From a virus, in the IMG/VR virus record IMGVR_UViG_3300044701_000610, positions 1 through 37,533 of that record: a stretch of 37,533 bases of DNA; one strand, 5' to 3'. How positions within the stretch are numbered: the first letter of the stretch is position 1; each line of letters opens with the position of its first letter. Below are positions 97 through 37,533 of the stretch, piece after piece. The notes beneath the pieces are model-generated. The model worked only from the letters and a program-made list of their open reading frames with translations, did not search any database and was not told the origin of the DNA. Both the position numbers and the translations under genes were made by a program.

Positions 97-2043
97 ATGA
101 CAATACTCTGGATTGATTTCGAAACCCGGTCGAAGTGCGACCTCTCCTCGCGTGGAGTCTATAACTATGCCCAAGACGGAACCACCGATGTACTTTGTAT
201 GTCGTACGCCTTTGATGAGGGCGAAGTTGTTACGTGGCAGCCCGATCAACCGTTTCCGGAATCCGTGCGCAATCACACCGGGCGCATCTACGCGCACAAT
301 GCCGCCTTCGAGCGTCTCATCTTTTGGTACGTCCTACAGTGTAACTTTCAACTCGAACAGTTCGTCTGCACCGCTGCACAAGCGCGTGCTAACTGCTTAC
401 CTGGCAGCCTTGAAGACGTCGGACGCGCCATCAGTAGCGTCATGCGCAAAGATCACCGGGGAAGTCAACTTATCCGACTTCTATCAGTACCTCGCGCAGA
501 CGGCACCTTCAATACTGATCCAAAATTAATGGCCGAGATGATCCAGTACTGCGAGCAGGACGTCCGTGCCATGCGAGCGATCAGCAAGGCCATGCGCCCG
601 CTGTCTGAGCAGGAGCTGGCCGACTACCACGTCAACGAGCGCATCAACGACCGCGGCGTACTGCTCGACTTGCCGTTGGCGCAGGCGGCCATCCGTTACG
701 CGTCCGTCGAGCTGGAAGAGATCGAGACGCTGGTCGCTGACTTGACAAAGGGTGAGATCAAGTCGGTGCGCAGTCCGAAGATGCGCCAGTGGGTGATCGA
801 CCGTGTCGGGCCGCAGGCGCTAAAGATGATGGAGACATACAAAGACGGCGACTTGAAGTACAGTATCGACAAGTCTGTACGCGCCAATTTGCTGGCTTTT
901 GCCGAGGAGAACCCTGATGAGATTCCGACCCATGTTGCGGACGTCATTCAATGCGCGGATGACCTCTGGGCGTCGTCGGTTGCGAAGTTCAGCCGCCTTG
1001 CGAGCTTGGCAGATGAAGACGATCACCGAGTACGAGGTGCTTTTGTCTTCGCTGGCGGATCTGCCACAGGACGTGCTTCAAGCTACGGCGCGCAAGTCCA
1101 TAATTTCACCCGCAAGTGCGCAGCAGCCCCAGATGACGTTAGGCACGCTATGGTCAGAGGCCACAGCATCGTCCCAAGATTTGGAAAACGCGTTACGGAT
1201 GTTCTCAAAGGAATGCTCCGGCCCGCACTGATACCCGCGCCCGGTAAGCAGTTCGTCGTTGCTGACTGGTCGGCGGTTGAGGCGCGGGTCACTGCATGGG
1301 CGTCAGCTGACCCGCAGGCCGAGGACGTGTTGCAGGTCTTCCGAGAAGGCCGTGACATTTACAAGCGTGAAGCTGCCGGTATCTACCGGGTGGCCGAGGA
1401 TGCGGTCGACAAGGAGCAGCGCCAGATCGGCAAGGTGGCGATTCTGTCACTGGGTTTTGGTGGTTCAATCGGCGCGTTCTCCGCGATGGGTCGCAACTAC
1501 GGTGTCATCATGCCTGAGTCGGACTCACGCCGGATTGTGGACGCATGGCGTCGCGCGAATGCGTGGGCCGTGCGCTACTGGGGCAAGCTTGAAGACGCCT
1601 ACACACGGGCGCTGCGCAACCCGAACCGGGAGTTCACCGCCGGTCGCGTTACGTATCTGTACGACGGCGTGCATCTTTGGTATGCGCTACCCAGCGGCCG
1701 CATCCTGTGCTATCCGTTCGCGAAGTTTGAAGGCGACGAGATCACTTACGTTAAAGCAGCGTGGAAGCCGGCAGCGGATGCCAAAGAATGGCCCCGGGCG
1801 CGCTTGTGGCGCGGGCTGGCTTGTGAGAACATAACGCAAGCAGTCGCCAATGATTTGCTACGGCATGCTTTACGCCAGCTTCCCGACGTGGTGCTGCATG
1901 TCCATGATGAGATCGTTCTGGAGACGGCTGACCCTGATGCACCCAATACCCTGAAACAAGTGATGTGTACGCCACCCGACTGGGCGGCTGGACTGCCTTT
2001 GTCCGCAGAAGTCGAAGTGATGGACAGATACGGCAAGGGCTAA
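97..2043 (+). CDS. Family A DNA polymerase with 3'-5' exonuclease domain
   Basis: This is the replicative phage DNA polymerase, 648 aa. The exonuclease domain shows Exo I (D7 and E9 in WIDFETRS), Exo II (N68 in AHNAAFE) and Exo III (Y151...D155 in YCEQDV). The polymerase domain shows motif A (D390 in DWSAVEAR), motif B (R442 and K446 in RQIGKVAILSLGFGG) and motif C (H603-D604-E605). Motif B has GFGG where Pol I enzymes usually have YG, and motif A has DWS rather than DYS; both are common in phage members. I chose ATG 97 over the in-frame TTG at 70 because the right-end copy also begins at this WID segment. The primase-helicase and methyltransferase-like genes follow. The first 19 codons differ strongly from the right-end allele. 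Confidence 0.96.
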   Translation: MTILWIDFETRSKCDLSSRGVYNYAQDGTTDVLCMSYAFDEGEVVTWQPDQPFPESVRNHTGRIYAHNAAFERLIFWYVLQCNFQLEQFVCTAAQARANCLPGSLEDVGRAISSVMRKDHRGSQLIRLLSVPRADGTFNTDPKLMAEMIQYCEQDVRAMRAISKAMRPLSEQELADYHVNERINDRGVLLDLPLAQAAIRYASVELEEIETLVADLTKGEIKSVRSPKMRQWVIDRVGPQALKMMETYKDGDLKYSIDKSVRANLLAFAEENPDEIPTHVADVIQCADDLWASSVAKFSRLASLADEDDHRVRGAFVFAGGSATGRASSYGAQVHNFTRKCAAAPDDVRHAMVRGHSIVPRFGKRVTDVLKGMLRPALIPAPGKQFVVADWSAVEARVTAWASADPQAEDVLQVFREGRDIYKREAAGIYRVAEDAVDKEQRQIGKVAILSLGFGGSIGAFSAMGRNYGVIMPESDSRRIVDAWRRANAWAVRYWGKLEDAYTRALRNPNREFTAGRVTYLYDGVHLWYALPSGRILCYPFAKFEGDEITYVKAAWKPAADAKEWPRARLWRGLACENITQAVANDLLRHALRQLPDVVLHVHDEIVLETADPDAPNTLKQVMCTPPDWAAGLPLSAEVEVMDRYGKG

Positions 2044-2090: not shown

Positions 2091-4400
2091 ATGGATTTCC
2101 TCGAATTTTATACCAAATTGGCACCACAAGGTGAGACTGCACTCATCGTGCGCCAAAAGCCACAGCTCAAATCCGGCGAGCTGCAATTCCACGCCGATGG
2201 CGCGATCAAGTGCACATGGCCAGCTTACCTGCCCGACTACCCGACCAAGCCCGACTGGGCCATCTACGGCAATACTGCGTCGTTCATCGTCGATCGCTTC
2301 AAGGATGGCCACGTCTCAGCGTCAGCAGCAAACGCCGACTACGTGCTGGTGATGGTGTTAGACGACGTCGGCGACCCTGTCAAGGCGCCCAACACCCCGA
2401 ATCTCCCGCCGACGTGGATCATGGAGACGTCTGCCGGGTCGTTCCAGTGGGGTTACGCGTTCTCTGAGCAGCCGACGACCGCCGAGTATGCTGCAGCCAT
2501 CCGCGCCATTGCGGATGCCGGCTACACCGACCCCGGTGCCTGCAACCCGGTGCGCAACTGGCGTCTGCCCGGCTCAATCAACCTAAAACCCGGCAGAGAT
2601 CGCTTCGCTGCCCGGCTGGCCGAGTTCCACCCCGAGCGCGAGTACACCTTGACCGAGATCTGCGACGCGCTGGGCGTCACGCCGGCGCCTGCCGAGGCGC
2701 TCAAAGTGCGCCCGATCCGGCTCTCAGACGATGGTGCGGATGACGTGATGGCGTGGCTCTCGCATCAAGGGCTACTACTGTCCACGCCGAACCCGGCGGG
2801 CTGGGCGGGCGTCATCTGCCCCAACAGTGCCGAGCATACCGACGGCAACCCTGAAGGGCGCTACAGCCCGGCGACGCGGTCGTACTGCTGCCTGCACTCG
2901 CACTGCATCGATCTGGACTCAGTGACGTTCTTGGATTGGGTGGCGGCCAATGGTGGGCCGAAACATTCGCCAGGGTTGCGTGAGGAACTGCTGGCGGCTG
3001 TGATGGATCAGACGCTGGCCAAGTTAAAGCCTACCGAAGCTTTCCCTGACAAGGGCGCCGAGGTGATTGCGGAAGTCGAGAAAAAACAACTGGATCGAGT
3101 CGAGAAGGAGAGCTGGTATGAACGTTTTGCTTACATTCAGGACGATGACGCGTACTTTGATCTCCAGGATCGAAGAGAGATTGCTCGCGGTACTTTCAAT
3201 GCACTCTTTCGACACGTCACCTGTTATTCCATCCACAAGGCAAAAAACGCGCGCCGAATTGAGGCGTCTGTATGCTTTGACGAGAACCGACAGAAAAAAG
3301 GTGCGCTCGCTCTAGCCGGAATCACGTATGCCGCCGGTGAGTCCGTGCTGGTATCGCGTGAGGGTCAAGTGTACGGCAACCGATGGATCAACCACCGCCC
3401 GGCGGTCAAGTCGGGCGACGCGGGCGTCTGGTTGCGCCATGTCGAGCGGATGATCCCTGAGAAGTTTGAGCGCGAACACGTCTTAAACGTGATGGCCTAC
3501 AAGCTTCAGCACCCCGACCGCAAGATCAACCACGCCGTGCTGCACATTGGTCACCCTGGGAGCGGCAAGGATACCCTCTGGCAGCCGTTCTTGTGGGGCA
3601 TCGGCGGCGAGTCACTCGCGAACGTGGCGATTGTCAGGAACGAGGAAATCACGTCACAGTGGGGCTATGCGCTCGAATCCGAGGTGATGGTGTTTGAAGA
3701 GCTGCGCGAGACCGAGGCGCGCGACCGCCGGGCGCTTGAAAACCACCTGAAACCCATCATCGCCGCACCGCCTGAGTTTCTGCAGGTGAACCGCAAAGGG
3801 TTGCACCCGTACCAAGCGCTGAATCGCATCTTCGTTCTCGCGTTCTCGAATGAGCGCGTGCCGCTCAGTCTGCCCTCCGACGACCGGCGATGGTTTGTGA
3901 CGTACTCGGACGCGCCGAGGATGACTGAGGCCGAAGGGCGGGCGATCTGGGATTGGTACAAGGCCGGCGGGCTGGCGGTTGCGGCTGGCTGGCTGTATCA
4001 GCGTGACGTGAGCCAATTCAACCCGGGCGCATCCCCACCGCTGACCGAGGCCAAAATGATTATGGTCGAGCAGGGCCGTAGCACGGCCGAATCCTATCTG
4101 GTTGAGATGATGCAGGCCCGGCTGGGCGAGTTCTCGCAGGGCGTCGTCGCGTCGCCGTTTTACGCCCTCTGCGACCGGCTATCGGGCGGTGCACCTGCAG
4201 GCGTGCGCGTGCCGCAGGCAGCGCTCCTGCATGCCTTCAAAGAGGCCGGCTGGGTGGACATGGGGCGGCTCAAGTCGCGCGAATACGACGCGAAGAAACA
4301 CATCTTTTGCGCGCCAGAACTGGCGGACCTGCCGAAGTCCGAATTGCGGCGCATGGTCGAAGAAGTGCCCGCGCCAGCAGCCGTGCGGCTGGTGAAATAA
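2091..4400 (+). CDS. Primase-helicase (RepB-like primase domain plus SF3-type ATPase)
   Basis: This 769-aa protein probably primes and unwinds DNA for the polymerase upstream. The N-terminal part resembles RepB-like archaeo-eukaryotic primases, with an acidic pair D91-D92 in VMVLDDVGD and a later NWRLPGSIN segment. A Cys/His-containing stretch (around YCCLHSHC) follows. The C-terminal half is a DUF5906/D5-like ATPase with Walker A GHPGSGKDT (G487-T495), a Walker B-like VMVFEEL, and a sensor-like FVLAFSNE. The start at 2091 has AAGGA 5 bases upstream; a longer frame opening at 1965 would overlap the polymerase. The stop overlaps the next start as TAATG. Confidence 0.9.
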   Translation: MDFLEFYTKLAPQGETALIVRQKPQLKSGELQFHADGAIKCTWPAYLPDYPTKPDWAIYGNTASFIVDRFKDGHVSASAANADYVLVMVLDDVGDPVKAPNTPNLPPTWIMETSAGSFQWGYAFSEQPTTAEYAAAIRAIADAGYTDPGACNPVRNWRLPGSINLKPGRDRFAARLAEFHPEREYTLTEICDALGVTPAPAEALKVRPIRLSDDGADDVMAWLSHQGLLLSTPNPAGWAGVICPNSAEHTDGNPEGRYSPATRSYCCLHSHCIDLDSVTFLDWVAANGGPKHSPGLREELLAAVMDQTLAKLKPTEAFPDKGAEVIAEVEKKQLDRVEKESWYERFAYIQDDDAYFDLQDRREIARGTFNALFRHVTCYSIHKAKNARRIEASVCFDENRQKKGALALAGITYAAGESVLVSREGQVYGNRWINHRPAVKSGDAGVWLRHVERMIPEKFEREHVLNVMAYKLQHPDRKINHAVLHIGHPGSGKDTLWQPFLWGIGGESLANVAIVRNEEITSQWGYALESEVMVFEELRETEARDRRALENHLKPIIAAPPEFLQVNRKGLHPYQALNRIFVLAFSNERVPLSLPSDDRRWFVTYSDAPRMTEAEGRAIWDWYKAGGLAVAAGWLYQRDVSQFNPGASPPLTEAKMIMVEQGRSTAESYLVEMMQARLGEFSQGVVASPFYALCDRLSGGAPAGVRVPQAALLHAFKEAGWVDMGRLKSREYDAKKHIFCAPELADLPKSELRRMVEEVPAPAAVRLVK

Positions 4401-4999
4401 TGCGCGTCCTTGTCGCTTGCGAGTACTCCGGCACGGTCAGGGATGCGTTCTTGCGTGCCGGGCATGAGGCGCTATCGTGCGATCTATTGCCGACTGACGT
4501 GCCGGGGCCGCACTATCAGGGTGACGTGCGTGATCTGCTAGCCGATGGTTGGGATTTGATGATTGCGCATCCGCCCTGCACTTACCTGTGTTCGAGCGGC
4601 TTACACTGGAACAAGCGCGTGCTTGGGCGTCAGGCGTTGACCGACGAGGCGCTCGATTTTGTGCGACTGCTGCTGGCCGCACCCGTGCCTCGCATTGCGC
4701 TCGAAAACCCTATCGGCTGCATTTCGACTCAGATCAGGCGGCCCGATCAGACAATACAGCCATGGCAATTCGGGCACGATGCCAGCAAGGCTACCTGCTT
4801 GTGGCTGCAAGGGCTGCCGCCGCTTATGCCGACTGACATTGTCGCGCCGCGTATCGTCAACGGAAAGCGGCGCTGGGCGAATCAAACCGATTCAGGTCAG
4901 AACCGCCTGCCGCCGTCCGCTGACCGCTGGAAAATTCGTTCTGAGACGTACGCGGGCATTGCGGCCGCCATGGCCGCGCAATGGGGCGCGCTGGCGTAA
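4400..4999 (+). CDS. Minimal DNA cytosine methyltransferase-like protein
   Basis: The product is 199 aa and starts at a TAATG overlap with the primase-helicase, so the two are probably translationally coupled. It begins MRVLVACEYSGTVRDAF, a Rossmann-type AdoMet-binding start. It has PPC (P58-P59-C60), matching the catalytic motif IV of C5-cytosine methyltransferases, and ENP at 102-104, which resembles motif VI (ENV). I see no clear motif VIII and no room for a usual target recognition domain, since Dcm-type enzymes are 300 aa or more. It may methylate phage DNA against host restriction, modify nucleotides, or be a relative with another role. The fold assignment is fairly safe and the activity is not. 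Confidence 0.72.
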   Translation: MRVLVACEYSGTVRDAFLRAGHEALSCDLLPTDVPGPHYQGDVRDLLADGWDLMIAHPPCTYLCSSGLHWNKRVLGRQALTDEALDFVRLLLAAPVPRIALENPIGCISTQIRRPDQTIQPWQFGHDASKATCLWLQGLPPLMPTDIVAPRIVNGKRRWANQTDSGQNRLPPSADRWKIRSETYAGIAAAMAAQWGALA

Positions 5000-35826: not shown

Positions 35827-36468
35827 ATGTCTAATATCGTATCGTTCAAAGGCGCTAACCTGCCAGCAGTCTCCACTCTCTCCACCGCACTGCGCACGCT
35901 CGAAACCGTCGCAGGCCCGGCAGGTTCTGTCATCATCAAAATGGACAAGACCGGTCACTGGGTGTTCGGTGCTGATCAGACCGACGTTGAAGAAGACTCG
36001 ACATGGGCGGTCAACCCGTTCTCATTTATCCACGGCTTTATCGCGTGGGGCGATGGTGAAGTCTTGGGTGAGAAGATGGTGTCGGTATCCGAGCCGCTGC
36101 CAGAGATGGACGCAGCACCACCCAACGCCAAGCGCGGTTGGGAGACGCAAGTCGGCATGTCGCTGAAATGTCTGTCGGGTTCCGACAAGGACATGGAAGC
36201 ACGCTACACGGTCACATCCGTTGGCGGTAAGAAGGCCGTGCAAGCACTGGCGGTTGCGATTGCCGAGCAGGTGGAGAAAGACCAGAGCAAGCCGGTGCCT
36301 GTCGTGCGTCTGAAGAAAGACCACTACACGCACAAGTCGTATGGCCGCATCTACACGCCGGTCTTTGAGATCGTCGAGTTTGTGTCCATGGATGGTAAAG
36401 CAGACGAAGCCGAAGCGGACGAAGCGCCTGTCGCAGAAGCAGCACCTGCCCGCCGCCGCCGCGGCTAA
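35827..36468 (+). CDS. Putative ssDNA-binding or recombination accessory protein, 213 aa
   Basis: This gene lies between the DUF2800 nuclease and the DNA polymerase. In related phages that place is taken by single-strand-binding-like proteins such as DUF2815, although I do not see that family clearly here. The sequence is beta-rich (SVIIKMDKTGHWVFGADQTD, YGRIYTPVFEIVEFVSM). It has an acidic tail (ADEAEADEAPVAEAAP) and then RRRRG. Acidic tails are typical of SSB-type proteins that recruit partners. GGAG lies upstream. Function inferred from place and tail. Confidence 0.65.
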   Translation: MSNIVSFKGANLPAVSTLSTALRTLETVAGPAGSVIIKMDKTGHWVFGADQTDVEEDSTWAVNPFSFIHGFIAWGDGEVLGEKMVSVSEPLPEMDAAPPNAKRGWETQVGMSLKCLSGSDKDMEARYTVTSVGGKKAVQALAVAIAEQVEKDQSKPVPVVRLKKDHYTHKSYGRIYTPVFEIVEFVSMDGKADEAEADEAPVAEAAPARRRRG

Positions 36469-36488: not shown

Positions 36489-36626
36489 ATGCTGTCGCGG
36501 GAGCGGGGATACGGAGGACTTGGGGCCAAACGCCCCGCCCTTTCTGGCCGCACACCTCGGGCAATAGCGACCATACTGACAGACGCAGCGAGTAAGCCCA
36601 CCTTTTCTATGGCCCCGGTCATCTAA
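36489..36626 (+). CDS. Possible 45-aa peptide in the leader (uncertain)
   Basis: An ATG frame encodes MLSRERGYGGLGAKRPALSG and continues PRAIATILTDAASKPTFS. The left copy of the leader (from position 1) keeps the same reading frame but ends at another stop (61-63). The ribosome binding site is weak, and the region also forms RNA structure. It could be a leader peptide or chance. Confidence 0.28.
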   Translation: MLSRERGYGGLGAKRPALSGRTPRAIATILTDAASKPTFSMAPVI

Positions 36627-36690
36627 TCATCAGGCTCTTCCTTGGTCGGTTCGACCTGATGCTGGCAAGATGACGGGGGGCCACCCCTAT
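36597..36690 (+). repeat. Right copy of the polymerase leader (diverged from 1-94)
   Basis: It aligns with window positions 1-94. Long blocks such as TCTTCCTTGGTCGGTTCGAC are identical, while flanking bases differ. It keeps the ATCAGG/CCTGAT stem (36629-36660) and the GGGG/CCCC stem (36675-36687). Instead of reaching the polymerase ATG three to six bases later, it is followed by the HNH insert. Confidence 0.85.
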
Positions 36691-36691
36691 T

Positions 36692-36812
36692 ATGCTAATA
36701 TTTGCATGTGCTTGGCGGCACGCTTACAGACAAGCCCTGTTCTGCATTCTGCTCGGTGTCTGCCGAGTCCGCCAACGTCGTAAGACGAGAATGCAGAACA
36801 GGGCTTTTTTTA
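36692..36812 (+). ncRNA. Y-shaped RNA with terminator upstream of the HNH gene (candidate)
   Basis: The outer stem is 19 bp and perfect: AAGCCCTGTTCTGCATTCT (36732-36750) with 36788-36806, followed directly by a T-run. The 37-base loop contains two more hairpins: CTCGG/CCGAG (36752-36767) and CGTC/GACG with a GTAA (GNRA-type) loop (36776-36787). Together they make a three-way junction. An extended -10-like TGCTAATAT lies just upstream (36693-36701), so a transcript of about 100 bases could begin near 36708 and end at the T-run. It could instead be only a terminator insulating the HNH gene. Confidence 0.6.
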
Positions 36813-36823
36813 TTGGGTGCAGT

Positions 36824-37345
36824 ATGAAAGAGATATGGAGATCCATAAAAGGTTTTACGGGTAGATACGAAGTAAGCAGTGAAGGCCGCGTCAGATCATT
36901 AACTCAGGTGGTTATTTGCGAAGGCCCGGTAAAAGGCCGGTATACATCAGTTCGTCATGGCAAATTATTGCGCCCGGGGCGTATGGCTAGCGGGCATTTA
37001 TCGGTCGCGCTTGGTAAAGGTAATAGCCAATGCGTGCATAGGCTAGTGTTAAATGCGTTTGTTGGGCCTGCGCCAGACGGTTACGAGTGCCTGCATATCA
37101 ACGGTAACCCGGCGGATAATCGGTTAGTAAATTTGCGCTGGGGCACGCGCAGCGAAAACAACGTGGACGCGGTAATACATCAGCACATGGGAAAACTAAC
37201 GGAGACACAGATAAAAGACATTCGCGCGCGGCTTGCGTCAAAAGAATGGGGTATCGGACGAAAATTGGCTAGGGAGTATGGCGTGCATGAGTCAACGATA
37301 AGCGCGATAAAAGTTCGGAGGCACTATGCGTGTTTTGTGGATTGA
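36824..37345 (+). CDS. NUMOD4/HNH homing-type endonuclease
   Basis: This 173-aa protein starts at 36824 (MKEIWRSIKGFTGRYEVSSE). The NUMOD4 domain (residues 4-26) reads W-x2-IKGFTGRYEVS...GRVRS. An HNH_3-type domain follows (about 58-115: VHRLVLNAFVG, LHINGNPADNRLVNLRW; H72, H91, N103). The C-terminus is a helix-turn-helix (about 125-168: IGRKLAREYGVHESTISAIK). Such free-standing nucleases spread by cutting alleles that lack them. It overlaps the polymerase start by 20 bases and contains that gene's GGAGG site. It is absent at the left end of the window. Confidence 0.9.
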   Translation: MKEIWRSIKGFTGRYEVSSEGRVRSLTQVVICEGPVKGRYTSVRHGKLLRPGRMASGHLSVALGKGNSQCVHRLVLNAFVGPAPDGYECLHINGNPADNRLVNLRWGTRSENNVDAVIHQHMGKLTETQIKDIRARLASKEWGIGRKLAREYGVHESTISAIKVRRHYACFVD

Positions 37346-37533
37346 CATGGAAACGCGCAGTCGTTGTGATTTAACTAGCAGGGGAGTCTATAACTATGCC
37401 CAAGATGGAACCACCGATGTACTTTGTATGTCGTACGCCTTTGATGAGGGCGAAGTTGTTACGTGGCAGCCCGATCAACCGTTTCCGGAATCCGTGCGCA
37501 ATCACACCGGGCGCATCTACGCGCACAATGCCG
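37326..37533 (+). CDS. DNA polymerase, 5' end, second allele (cut by window end)
   Basis: This is the start of the polymerase in the HNH-containing version. It begins MRVLWIDMETRSRCDLTSRG against MTILWIDFETRSKCDLSSRG at 97. GGAGG lies 4 bases upstream, inside the HNH gene. Codons 1-19 differ at nearly every third base, and from 37383 on the DNA is identical to 154-304 except one silent change (37406 T against 177 C). The gene continues at the left end if the molecule is circular. Confidence 0.93.
   Translation, partial: MRVLWIDMETRSRCDLTSRGVYNYAQDGTTDVLCMSYAFDEGEVVTWQPDQPFPESVRNHTGRIYAHNA
37383..37533 (+). repeat. Terminal overlap with positions 154-304
   Basis: These 151 bases match 154-304 with one difference (37406/177). 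They show that the window ends overlap, as in an assembly of a circular or circularly permuted genome. The unit would be 37229 bp for the HNH version and 36596 bp for the version without it. Confidence 0.92.

Follow-up and report, generated by a model that had tools for sequence, protein, structure and literature searches.

A probable homing-nuclease cassette with a C4/IsrK-like RNA at the start of a phage DNA polymerase gene

Free-standing homing endonuclease genes (HEGs) of phages are intergenic, and distant cleavage and co-conversion are both known for their products (PMC2988022). Such genes lie near essential genes, at the borders of exchanged DNA (PMC10448857). HNH enzymes aimed at phage DNA polymerase genes are also known, including I-HmuI and I-HmuII of SPO1 and SP82 and I-PfoP3I, which belong to group I introns inside the gene (PMC3428280). 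Among phage regulatory RNAs, the structure and targets of the C4 RNA (RF01695) have been described (PMC5320573), and its c4-a1b1 motif has been listed (PMC2864571). IsrK (RF01394) is a short RNA that ends at a terminator; transcription can read through into its operon, and it regulates in trans (PMC4825925). Both C4 and IsrK are found upstream of an antirepressor.

The locus compared here with these systems occupies both ends of a viral contig of 37,533 nucleotides (IMG/VR record IMGVR_UViG_3300044701_000610), the whole of which is referred to as the window. As an earlier note on this DNA had claimed, the two ends represent different versions of a single phage polymerase locus (the region 1-304 and 36597-37533): 150 of 151 bases are shared between 154-304 and 37383-37533 (blastn), and the leaders at 1-63 and 36597-36659 are related, with 84% identity by blastn and about 78-84% across comparisons. 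The abrupt onset of near-identity at 154/37383 also held, as polymerase codons 20-69 are 99% identical and the final mismatch between the copies falls at 177/37406. Right after this mismatch starts an exact overlap of 127 bases, the longest between the contig end and the left region. A k of 127 is a standard metaSPAdes setting, and the assembler of this contig is not stated. Given this match, the simplest reading is a fork in the assembly graph, where two real strain alleles join a common polymerase path, and the contig breaks at the polymerase start because the graph forks there. No overlap links the start of the contig to the upstream trunk, which makes the left branch a dead end, perhaps derived from a rarer strain. 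Both arrangements recur in independent metagenomes, with the exact carrier tract in two further contigs (L014 and L025) and most relatives empty, supporting the claim of two alleles.

Table 1. Features of the two polymerase alleles and of the inserted cassette (window coordinates).
Feature	Position	Strand	Evidence or remark
Polymerase leader of the left allele, without insert; structured RNA cut off by contig start	1-96	+	~80% identity to leaders elsewhere; compensatory changes preserve the stem
Family A DNA polymerase, left allele, ATG at 97	97-2043	+	PF00476 1.8e-18; phrog_17 9.5e-93
Polymerase codons 1-19, left nuclease-free allele, with DxE	97-153	+	Alignments
Exact end overlap, 127 bases	178-304 = 37407-37533	+	Probable assembly-graph node
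Right-allele polymerase leader; covarying hairpin 36610-36624/36668-36682, inner stem 36628-36634/36655-36661	36575-36689	+	Alignment and RNAalifold
Inserted cassette, 636 bp, RNA element and HNH gene	36690-37325	+	Missing from left allele and most relatives
C4/IsrK-like structured RNA	36706-36810	+	Fold z, covariation, model R1 114 bits
RNA a1 UUGGCGG; b1 CAGACA	36712-36718; 36727-36732	+
RNA P1	36733-36750/36788-36805	+
RNA P2; loop UGUCUG	36752-36755/36764-36767; 36757-36762	+
RNA linker CCGCCAA; P3; U-run	36769-36775; 36776-36779/36784-36787; 36805-36811	+
Homing-type endonuclease with NUMOD4 and HNH_3, 173 aa, HTH-like region at the C-terminus	36824-37345	+	Domain matches, I-HmuI
133-base stretch of full identity with the carriers L014 and L025	37273-37405	+	HNH 3' end and polymerase codons 1-26
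HNH 3' end overlapping polymerase start, 20 bases	37326-37345	+	ORF list and alignment
Polymerase codons 1-19, recoded nuclease-linked allele	37326-37382	+	Identical in L014 and L025; over-recoded

Alignments place the insert of the right allele after the leader (...CCACCCCTA) and before the polymerase ATG, and the extra block of about 635 bp with a NUMOD4/HNH nuclease that had been noted there was confirmed at 636 bp. The encoded protein carries a homing-type nuclease domain (HNH_3, 3.4e-15) and a DNA-binding module (NUMOD4, 1.3e-9), its HTH-like match is phrog_517, and its closest solved relative, the sole PDB sequence match, is I-HmuI (1u3e, 4.2e-7). The start of the gene, earlier placed at 36692, is probably at 36824 (MKEIW), where NUMOD4 begins. 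Further features that match those of free-standing homing endonucleases are an intergenic position before the ATG and outside any intron, cassette-free alleles in close relatives and in the left allele of the window, and horizontal transfer with flanking DNA, seen in the block shared by L014 and L025. Neither a group I nor a group II intron core was matched by Rfam in the window, even at E 10. The locus resembles I-HmuI, I-HmuII and I-PfoP3I in tying an HNH enzyme to a phage DNA polymerase gene, but differs from them in having no intron (PMC3428280). With the T4-like mob and seg HNH/GIY-YIG genes (PMC2988022) it shares an intergenic nuclease beside an essential replication gene, empty alleles and co-transfer of flanks. 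Unlike in those systems, the cassette sits directly at the start of its probable target, the polymerase gene, the same site is also used by methyltransferase and Mom cassettes, and a C4-like RNA precedes the nuclease. As in the exchange regions bounded by HEGs (PMC10448857), a nuclease borders exchanged DNA near an essential gene, although here the locus is a cassette of less than a kilobase with interchangeable non-nuclease cargo. Relative to known free-standing homing nucleases, it is this interchangeable cargo and the C4-like RNA that are new.

Comparison of the two other carriers indicates how the cassette is transmitted. Around the polymerase ATG, L014 and L025 share an unbroken identical block that runs from -643 to +118 (762 bp, comprising most of the cassette and 39 polymerase codons). 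Upstream of it, no more than scattered differences occur as far as about -740; outside this stretch identity drops to ~70-80%. An identical block amid such diverged DNA shows a cassette that moves together with its leader and polymerase flanks, and horizontal movement of the nuclease cassette in this form is supported by the alignment. The nuclease gene of the window is 75% identical overall to those of L014 and L025, and polymerase codons 20-69 are 78-79% identical. Despite these diverged neighbours, the 133-base run is shared, which shows that the 3' end of the nuclease gene moves together with the recoded tract. The carrier tract is identical in all three carriers (the window, L014 and L025), whose next 50 codons are 78-82% alike. 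Methyltransferase cassettes at the same site show a similar linkage, with a tract identity of 0.93 vs 0.82 for the next 50 codons, and tract linkage alone is therefore no proof of nuclease action.

The first 19 polymerase codons had been described as recoded with few amino acid changes, and this description is accurate: between the right and left alleles, 28 of 57 bases are identical (29 differ), and 14 of 19 amino acids are kept. The tract does encode the DxE motif (WIDFETRS). When the same protein was recoded at random with synonymous codons drawn from phage codon usage, 36.2 (sd 2.5) identical bases were expected, compared to the 28/57 observed between the carrier tract and the left allele (P 0.0009). 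The excess sits in codons 8-19 (P 0.0009), whereas codons 1-7, which overlap the nuclease gene, do not contribute (P 0.39); an explanation of the recoding by the HNH/polymerase overlap was rejected on this basis. With the codon usage of the nuclease gene itself, the pair with the left allele gives P 0.01, and against all distinct nuclease-free alleles the values are 0.016 (phage usage) and 0.05-0.14 (HNH usage); all of these are optimistic because the test was post hoc, prompted by seeing the recoding. Among the 48 alleles listed, only the carrier tract falls below random expectation, and the remaining carriers of an HNH gene here (L043, L033, L064, L073) show no over-recoding. The excess in the HNH-linked tract fits protection of a nuclease target. 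According to the earlier note, the recoded tract in related phages with no nuclease nearby would refute co-conversion, and such tracts were found in part: L053 and L024, which have no nuclease between leader and polymerase, carry tracts that are 79% and 74% identical to that of the carriers, similar rather than the same. These two may once have been carriers, or may represent a separate source of the tract.

Pre-polymerase loci were compared among relatives, defined as the best 80 polymerase matches. In many of these the leader stands directly before the ATG, with 92-107 bases from leader start to ATG in most, so related phages with a leader lacking the HNH gene, for which a search had been advised, are in fact the majority. 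The site is a hot spot for cassettes, which according to the alignments are swapped along with the first polymerase codons. It holds HNH genes of several types (L014, L025, L043, L033, L064, L073), C5 methyltransferases (L006, L011, L044, L016, L040), a Mom gene (L058, 2186-2746), a phrog_757 methyltransferase (L020) and an ORF of 141-143 codons (L047, L055). Several cargo genes end in the same 20-base overlap with the polymerase start. In MW202483, the closest annotated phage whose polymerase is related, no nuclease is annotated before the gene and a pattern search found no cassette RNA. Because empty, filled and swapped alleles form a natural series at one essential phage gene, the idea that a free-standing nuclease recodes its own target is directly testable. 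Since DNA-modification genes are traded there too, selfish and anti-restriction cargo may use a common point of exchange.

Missing from the earlier note is a structured RNA within the insert. The segment 36725-36820 is far more stable than its shuffles (z -7.2), and apart from the window the element occurs in 38 retrieved loci, a few of which duplicate a contig. In 15 distinct members, the structure consists of a 5' hairpin, an 18-bp stem around two hairpins and two further pairings, with 96.7% of cells paired (37-45% in a slid control) and 24 pairs showing double-sided changes. The loop pairing varies with compensation (CAGACA/UGUCUG, CAAGGU/ACCUUG, CGUAGUA/UACUACG, AACAGU/ACUGUU); the UUGGCGG/CCGCCAA pairing is invariant, in part because it was included in a search pattern. 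Since the upstream partner of the loop abuts one end of the 18-bp stem and the loop lies at the far end, the two can hardly pair in one molecule, which suggests that the RNA may act between molecules or as a switch. In HNH and polymerase members, the RNA is flanked on one side by homologues of the gene at 35827 and on the other by the HNH or polymerase gene; the polymerases of RNA-bearing members are as low as 55% identical, and in L109 the RNA precedes the polymerase with no nuclease. The same type of RNA also precedes DUF1376 genes (L122, L127, L130, L133) and a Rha regulatory gene (L123).

This architecture is close to that of C4 and IsrK (PMC4825925). A long P1 encloses two hairpins, and a GCCAAC linker comes after the specificity hairpin. 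The upstream complements (a1/b1) are arranged as in seven true C4 loci, with TTGGC first and the loop complement second. There are, however, clear differences. Here the order is specificity hairpin, linker and short-loop hairpin, and P1 ends in a U-run, whereas C4 has a tetraloop hairpin, then the specificity hairpin and the linker. The RF01695 covariance model matched true C4 loci as a control, but found nothing in the window or L123 at E 10 and nothing at gathering in six member loci. A second target (a2/b2) at the ribosome-binding site or start codon downstream was not found consistently among members, while in the true C4 locus L244 it is present by eye. Finally, the RNA lies upstream of an HNH/polymerase pair rather than an antirepressor. 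We would put the idea that the cassette holds a previously undescribed, rearranged C4/IsrK relative controlling a homing-nuclease/DNA-polymerase operon, and so tying antisense-RNA timing to a mobile nuclease, slightly short of even odds. If the RNA acts like C4 or IsrK, it would extend that regulatory type past antirepressor operons.

Other identities for the RNA were considered. A simple terminator hairpin would leave unexplained the pairing of loop and linker with segments further upstream, and the covariation of the loop pairing. An HDV-like ribozyme, suggested by the topology, was dropped as members have no unpaired bases between P3 and P1, and weak Rfam miRNA matches in the window and L123 are hairpin noise, far below gathering scores. 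A bacterial origin was rejected on searches of bacterial contigs and genomes: the strict pattern had no match in bacterial genome contigs, matches to a looser pattern there had no comparable stem, and 300 genomes of one bacterial order gave none in a search that had no positive control. Consensus scans for promoters and terminators returned nothing, the long branched stem exceeding the loop limits of the scan; a -10-like sequence is seen by eye upstream of the RNA across members. The polymerase leader is itself structured, with 24 pairs in its hairpin, 10 of which show compensatory change (alignment, RNAalifold), and the left leader is divergent yet keeps the stem through paired changes. This clade-wide hairpin is perhaps a translational operator.

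Taken together, we favour, with a probability of roughly 0.65, a reading in which a co-occurring strain contributes the cassette-free allele at the left end, the nuclease cassette homes into the polymerase start, the recoded codons protect the carrier and the RNA times the operon. The cassette, the empty alleles, the block transfer and the linked tract are shown by the sequences, and from these we infer the steps of cutting, target, protection and RNA control. The nuclease would nick or cut the polymerase start in co-infecting cassette-free phages, and repair by recombination would copy the cassette with its leader and polymerase flanks. Recoded codons 8-19 would shield the carrier from its own nuclease, and the RNA may limit or time read-through into nuclease and polymerase, as IsrK and C4 RNAs do in their operons. 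Co-conversion after a homing cut, the mechanism proposed in the earlier note, agrees with the alleles, the block transfer, the linked tract, the over-recoded codons 8-19 and the kinship to I-HmuI. Its specificity to the nuclease was not supported, in view of the methyltransferase tracts, L053 and L024, and the other HNH carriers. Given the methyltransferase tracts and the similar nuclease-free tracts, co-conversion after a nuclease cut is likely only.

A modular exchange that needs no nuclease is one rival reading. Ordinary phage recombination, with leader and polymerase as arms of homology, would exchange whatever cassette is present (HNH, methyltransferase, Mom or none), and the recoded codons would be no more than the flank linked to the incoming module. 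The C5 methyltransferase cassettes follow the same block pattern, and tracts are swapped even among nuclease-free loci (L048, L050, L051, L052, L053, L054; tract 0.70-0.95, next 50 codons 0.97-0.99). Such exchange, judged unlikely though still of real weight, does not predict that the HNH tract is over-recoded in codons 8-19 or that different HNH genes have settled at the site repeatedly. An artificial join of the left 1-177 would explain why the left branch ends blindly, unconnected by overlap to the upstream trunk; such a chimera is very improbable, as the exact 127-base overlap is the signature expected of a graph, both architectures occur in independent metagenomes and the left leader stem is preserved by compensatory changes. 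Least credible is a self-splicing intron, degenerate or active, that carries a homing gene: the intron-encoded I-HmuI in a phage polymerase gene (PMC3428280) invites the comparison, and the position of the insert before the ATG, outside the polymerase reading frame, together with the Rfam result, leaves it almost no room.

Three further observations concern the neighbourhood of the polymerase. The C5 methyltransferases of one group are strongly divergent in their central region, resembling target-domain swapping. In some relatives, a second NUMOD4/HNH-like ORF lies immediately 3' of the polymerase (L006 4647-5000, L035 5977-6330, L036 5095-5448, L060 5929-6288), and the polymerase can therefore have a nuclease on its other flank. 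In the window itself, positions 4391-4842, downstream of the polymerase region, resemble phage DNA methyltransferase genes.
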